Of a stretch of 25,577 nucleotides of DNA, positions 6,994 to 7,048 are shown piece after piece. Numbering within the stretch: position 1 is the first letter of the stretch; the number at the start of each line of letters is the position of its first letter. This DNA comes from a virus: positions 1 through 25,577 of IMG/VR virus record IMGVR_UViG_3300035698_009022; one strand, written 5' to 3'. Under the pieces are notes generated by a model that did no database searches, was not told the DNA's origin, and was given only the letters and a program-made list of their open reading frames with translations. The position numbers and the translations under genes were made by a program.

Positions 6994-7048
6994 TTTTACG
7001 GTACTGTAACTTTTTTATAGTACCTTAATATTTTTACAGTACCGTAAG
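6994..7048. repeat. Array of three GTAC-centred palindromes at 19-bp spacing (array 1)
   Basis: Copies are TTTTACGGTACTGTAA (6994-7009), a degenerate TTTTTATAGTACCTTAA (7012-7028) and TTTTTACAGTACCGTAA (7031-7047). The GTAC centres fall at 7002.5, 7021.5 and 7040.5, exactly 19 bp apart. Each is a dyad of half-sites TTTTTAC(A/G)G. The array ends 4 bp before a TTGACA -35-like box, as expected for an operator array controlling the gene 46 operon. Confidence 0.85.

Follow-up and report, generated by a model that had tools for sequence, protein, structure and literature searches.

Tandem near-palindromic sites at a 19-bp pitch lie at replication and recombination promoters in a lineage of uncultured T4-type phages

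The window analyzed here, that is, the whole stretch of 25,577 nucleotides, belongs to record IMGVR_UViG_3300035698_009022 and is a 25.6-kb fragment of an uncultured T4-type phage. The nearest GenBank phages are only ~32-36% identical to this lineage (polymerase, helicase and NrdA), and the GTDB genomes scanned with UvsX yielded a single distant match. The genes and sites discussed below are collected in Table 1; also to the right of array 1 are genes for a glycosyltransferase, an RNase H-like nuclease and NrdA. We take gp32, gp61 and the RuvC-like gene to be such from their sequence, while the label gp33/gp59 was presumed from T4 gene order alone. On the minus strand, a T4-type late promoter (TATAAATA, 6732-6739) is located ~43 bp ahead of the uvsY start, suggesting that uvsY-uvsW may be late; the gp46 side has a sigma-70 promoter. 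A 57-aa ORF (12080-12253) immediately after array 2 is absent at that place in relatives and was without a PHROG match.

Table 1. Coordinates of genes, promoters and dyad sites in the window.
Feature	Position	Strand	Remarks
uvsW, uvsY	left part of window		
Singleton dyad, perfect	6847..6862	-	uvsY side of AT-rich stretch, 148 bp from array 1
AT-rich stretch between singleton and array 1	6885..6980		unwinding-element-like
Array 1, copy 1	6995..7010	+ (GG..CT core)	TTTACGGTACTGTAAC, 1 mismatch to TTTACRGTACYGTAAA; 16-bp pseudo-dyad
Array 1, copy 2, degenerate	7014..7029	- (GG..CT core)	TTTATAGTACCTTAAT, 3 mismatches to TTTACRGTACYGTAAA
Array 1, copy 3	7033..7048	- (GG..CT core)	TTTACAGTACCGTAAG, 1 mismatch to TTTACRGTACYGTAAA
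TTGACA element adjoining array 1	7052..7057	+	TTTACA or TTAACA in some relatives
Main gp46 promoter	7082..7109	+	TTGACT 7082-7087, 16 bp, TATATT 7104-7109; conserved in relatives
gp46, gp55 (late sigma), gp47	7146..10329	+	operon downstream of array 1
Promoter upstream of array 2	11965..11993	+	TTGACA, 17 bp, CATATT
Array 2, copy 1	12024..12039	+	at ~+32 of DHH-gp43-uvsX operon promoter
Array 2, copy 2, perfect	12043..12058	-	
Array 2, copy 3	12062..12077	+	
DHH protein, gp43, uvsX, gp41, (gp33/gp59), gp32, gp61, RuvC-like	12255..22055	+	genes downstream of array 2

An earlier note on this DNA had described three dyads ahead of gp46 (array 1), centred at 7002.5, 7021.5 and 7040.5 with a pitch of 19 bp, and re-inspection showed these coordinates to be correct. 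Beyond the site first noted, a second triplet with the same pitch (array 2) and a perfect singleton dyad (6847-6862) were found. Matches to the 20-mer at ≤3 mismatches numbered 4 in the window (0.05 expected from shuffles), and matches to the 16-mer numbered 8 (0.62 expected); dyad-GTAC pairs at 19 bp occurred in 0/300 window shuffles. At the place equivalent to the singleton dyad in the 224-kb relative G006, the inter-site distances are 150 and 151 bp.

From 25 sites in eight records (G006 apart), oriented by their core, we derived the consensus TTTANGG-(TA)-CTNTAAA, in which positions 3, 4, 6, 7, 10, 11 and 13 are invariant. The GG..CT core is asymmetric in 25/25 copies; the pair formed by positions 6 and 11 is always G/T, and never G/C or A/T, so that asymmetry is built into the site. 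In place of the middle TA, G005 has GT and GC, and one copy in G004 has a variant centre. The initial description of GTAC-centred palindromes is thus right in that the sites are near-palindromes, but neither strict symmetry (the core is always GG..CT) nor a fixed GTAC centre (see G005) survives. The variant centres in G005 and G004 also rule out that the site is strictly a GTAC palindrome, as a methylation target would be. With regard to orientation, the gp45 arrays of relatives are +,- in 6/6 cases, and the gp46 arrays are +,-,- in both the window and G004.

Relatives were retrieved by protein searches and pattern searches; all are metagenomic records, mostly fragments. Across nine records, the arrays recur at three promoters only, those of gp45 (clamp), DHH-gp43-uvsX-gp41 and gp46-55-47. 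Arrays at gp45 were present in G001, G003, G005, G006, G008 and G009, those at DHH-gp43 in the window, G002, G004, G006 and the near-strain L076, with one degenerate copy in G001, and those at gp46 in the window and G004, with dispersed sites there in G006. The interval between neighbouring copies was 19 bp in 15/15 cases (two each in array 1, array 2 and the gp46 array of G004, and single ones in G001, G002, G003, G004 at DHH, G005, G008, G009, and G006 at gp45 and at DHH). Where the motif has drifted, both copies of an array are hit and the 19-bp spacing is kept.

The motif of G006 has drifted to TTTAAAGTACTTGAAA, and a matrix scan of this record returned exactly nine sites, with scores of 21.6-27.2 (next best 12.0). 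These are a pair at gp45, a pair at DHH, four sites within the uvsY-gp46 gap and a single one at 40.9 kb, at ~+12 of an operon encoding a protein of unknown function and then an NAD salvage-looking gene; the gap contains a tandem duplication of 279 bp. With no assumption on the flanks, G006 has no dyad-GTAC pairs within 60 bp other than the two at 19 bp. A matrix scan had been put forward as a check on the proposal, with more intergenic 19-bp arrays as the supporting outcome; such arrays exist at homologous promoters, in the window and in relatives. The contrary outcome, a random scatter of copies into genes with loss of spacing, was not seen: 9/9 sites of G006 lie clear of the called genes (84% of the record, as called by a simple script), and the spacing outlasts the drift. 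The 19-bp double-dyad pattern was absent from the genomes of 84,980 prokaryote species (one genome per species) and, among 2.9 million viral contigs (IMG/VR), was matched by this lineage only. The more distant relatives G010 and G011 had no arrays at gp45 or DHH, and no dyad arrays were seen at DHH in G007. Instead, the uvsY-gp46 gap of G007 (L072:5515-6020) contains GGTCC/GGGCCC together with a cluster of helically phased TTAAG repeats, most of them spaced at 10-11 bp.

The position of the sites relative to promoters was also analyzed. The TTGAC promoters said to follow array 1 were confirmed in the case of the conserved TTGACT element; the TTGACA adjoining the array is probably not a -35 box, given the sequences that replace it in relatives (Table 1). 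At gp46, the proximal dyad centre is 40-41 bp upstream of the -35 box, and at gp45 it is upstream by 35 bp in five genomes and 42 bp in G006. At DHH, the first dyad centre is downstream, 38-39 bp from the end of the -10 box by visual count in five genomes. Where the site is upstream (gp45, gp46), the promoter has a 16-bp spacer in 9/9 cases, a length seen in only 4/30 of the G006 promoters listed (17 bp in 26/30). Among members of the common G006 promoter class with a called gene downstream, 3/30 carry a site; the G006 DHH promoter (-10 = CATATT) is a fourth promoter with one. This genome-wide class has an unusually conserved spacer sequence (~AAATAACTATTGACATCNNTTNNCCATTAATTATATT; L053 ~816-845 and 29 other places). 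The array positions point to a promoter-related function; as sites are variously upstream and downstream of promoters, the regulation may be either positive or negative.

The arrays are repeated dyads with a constant pitch, they are intergenic and their positions are conserved relative to promoters. We consider it reasonably probable that they are tandem operators of a lineage-specific regulator for replication, recombination and late-transcription operons. Of the two options offered at the outset, a dimer-binding regulator array or origin iterons, this favours the tandem operators; iterons would not explain the gp45 and DHH arrays and would apply, with low probability, to the uvsY-gp46 gap. 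From the arrangement of the sites we infer a regulator protein, its cooperativity and the possible signs of its action. A dimeric or pseudo-symmetric DNA-binding protein, probably phage-encoded and lineage-specific, would bind each 16-bp site and cooperatively fill the two or three copies of an array, which are set 19 bp apart, and site occupancy would time the operons gp45, DHH-gp43-uvsX-gp41-gp32 and gp46-gp55-gp47. Repression would be expected where sites sit just past the start (DHH, ~+32; the 40.9-kb operon of G006, ~+12), and at sites ~-70 to -115 before the 16-bp-spacer promoters (gp45, gp46) activation or looping would be as likely. Since downstream and upstream sites suggest different signs, a dual regulator is our working model. 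Some observations count against operators: the scans of small G006 ORFs (below) yielded no canonical repressor; placement is both upstream and downstream, so one simple mechanism fails to cover all sites; the two gp45 distances, 35 and 42 bp, are out of phase by over half a helical turn; G010 and G011 are without gp45 or DHH arrays; and the gp45 arrays covary as hairpins. To our knowledge, the timing of replication genes in T4-type phages without detectable MotA/AsiA has been little explored; the arrays are a precisely defined cis-element that can be tested, with a predicted regulon of small size and a 19-bp geometry that holds as the sequence drifts.

MotA and AsiA profiles had no match in G006, G010 or G011, the window genome itself being only a fragment; the T4 positive control gave E values of 3e-63 and 2e-43. 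This result in the searched relatives fits the idea of a different early/middle switch, but a general early/middle operator was rejected because few common-class promoters of G006 carry a site. Pfam and PHROG scans of ~200 small G006 ORFs revealed no canonical or clear repressor, and a 78-aa protein with a weak 'repressor' match (E 0.021) was discarded, its AF2 model (mean pLDDT 72, pTM 0.33) being uninformative. The best lead is another protein, which is conserved in relatives that carry arrays and was not detected in G010-G013; it has a strand-helix-helix segment resembling ribbon-helix-helix. Proteins of the MetJ/Arc ribbon-helix-helix type bind tandem palindromic sites as cooperative dimers, and the candidate is like them in this segment; it differs in its acidic strand and in a low-confidence model (mean pLDDT 54), and its sole Arc-like profile match has an E value of 0.034. 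Because of the acidic strand and poor model, we treat it as a lead only. G006 also encodes a second sigma-70-like factor besides gp55 (L054:723-1364; PHROG sigma, E 1e-17), with a common early-class promoter upstream.

The arrays resemble lambdoid OL/OR, where individual operators are imperfectly symmetric and adjacent pseudo-symmetric dyads lie at a near-fixed pitch next to promoters. Here, in contrast, the sites are at T4-type replication/recombination operons with a 19-bp pitch at all loci, and no CI/Cro-like gene was found among the ~200 small ORFs scanned in G006. There may also be a likeness to T4 MotA/AsiA, which governs the middle-mode expression of replication genes and has the uvsY-origin promoter among its targets (PMC3016281). 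MotA boxes, however, are in the -30 region, whereas the present sites are 16-bp near-palindromes outside complete -35/-10 promoters and in tandem at 19 bp.

A different explanation is that the singleton and array 1 are origin iterons flanking an AT-rich unwinding element, where an initiator protein would start replication, either in the manner proposed for the iterons of T4 oriE or in addition to an R-loop origin of the oriF type. In T4, oriF, or ori(uvsY), consists of a promoter plus an A+T-rich DUE, oriE has 12-nt iterons of unproven role, and oriE, F and G sit at transcription divergence and a nucleotide skew shift (PMC3016281). The uvsY-gp46 gap shares with oriE and oriF the combination of repeats or AT-rich DNA with transcription divergence and a skew shift, oriF itself being at uvsY (PMC3016281). 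The dyads flank the AT-rich core of the gap, which is also bordered by 26-nt inverted repeats (6848-6873/6984-7009), local GC-skew minima occur near uvsY-gp46 in G006 (185,225), G010 (48,906) and G011 (160,741), and several distant relatives have other palindromic repeat clusters and AT-rich DNA upstream of gp46. However, the combination of repeats, an adjoining AT-rich element and a skew switch is seen in the uvsY-gp46 gap, not at gp45 or DHH; the same arrays occur at these two places and at a fourth operon without such AT-rich DNA. Furthermore, the skew minimum of the window is at 7646, within gp46, the oriE repeats are direct repeats and those here near-palindromes, and the conserved dyad-to-promoter distances count against origin iterons. 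We consider this explanation unlikely; since skew and gene orientation are confounded, it stays a rival.

Upstream of gp46, L092, L093, L094, L095, L096 and L098 have lineage-specific palindromic repeats, among them CCTAGG, ACCGGT and GGATCC, with AT-rich DNA behind them. As distant relatives have palindromes in the gap and none at gp45 or DHH in the two inspected, there may be two layers: a region of old, origin-like character at the uvsY-gp46 junction, and newer lineage operators occurring elsewhere too. The findings also point to the junction as a recurring skew-switch, palindrome-rich and AT-rich region in the wider T4-like group, a pattern that bears on the role of the T4 iterons. It is also unlikely, in our estimate, that a single lineage-specific protein occupies the AT-rich uvsY-gp46 origin region as well as the replisome-gene operators, replacing MotA/AsiA. 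If true, one initiator/regulator would couple replication initiation to replication-gene expression, and the asymmetric site (GG..CT in 25/25) would reflect two non-identical reading heads.

The arrays could also act as hairpins, with neighbours in opposite orientation pairing into 13-16-bp stems, either in RNA or as a cruciform in DNA. Folding of array RNAs is much stronger than that of shuffled sequences (z -4.5 to -6.1), and covariation is seen in the outer stem at gp45, where pairing is 96%, both sides have changed in 4 pairs and the covariation score was reached by 0/500 shuffles; the outer halves of the gp45 arrays mirror each other, so that these arrays also form a covarying 13-bp inverted repeat. 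Compensatory changes nevertheless did not extend to every locus, as covariation of the DHH arrays was not above shuffles, with G002 breaking 3/13 pairs, and singletons and same-orientation arrays exist. Palindromes also pair automatically, two sites read by one protein drift together, the fixed 19-bp pitch is not required by a hairpin, and the gp45 array sits upstream of gp45's own promoter. We consider hairpins quite unlikely to be what the arrays are for, and it is very unlikely that the phage makes use of a host regulator (LexA-like or similar) whose sites these are. A host protein would be consistent with the lack of a phage regulator in our scans and with the repair and recombination genes being the regulated ones, and motif drift could conceivably follow different hosts. 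The 0 matches to the 19-bp double-dyad in 84,980 species genomes argue against it, although hosts with single sites would escape this pattern. Tandem operators of a lineage-specific regulator are the reading we prefer.

Some further structures were noted in the course of this work. The scan for intrinsic terminators flagged 7000-7024, which was rejected, the stem being AU-rich and the arrangement not conserved as a terminator. A known RNA family was likewise rejected, as the Rfam scan of the gp46-uvsY gap gave no family at its cut-off. This includes a strong stem-loop at 6775-6840 of the window (z -5.8 as RNA) that adjoins the singleton dyad; at the equivalent place, G006 has a different structured-looking duplicated stretch (L060 ~4880-4990 and 5160-5270). 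From 120 to 224 kb in G006, TGA is not used by well-supported called genes. The same record encodes a tRNA with anticodon CTA (amber suppressor-like; L057:13485-13560) among ~27 tRNA genes, and TAG still serves as stop in its called genes.
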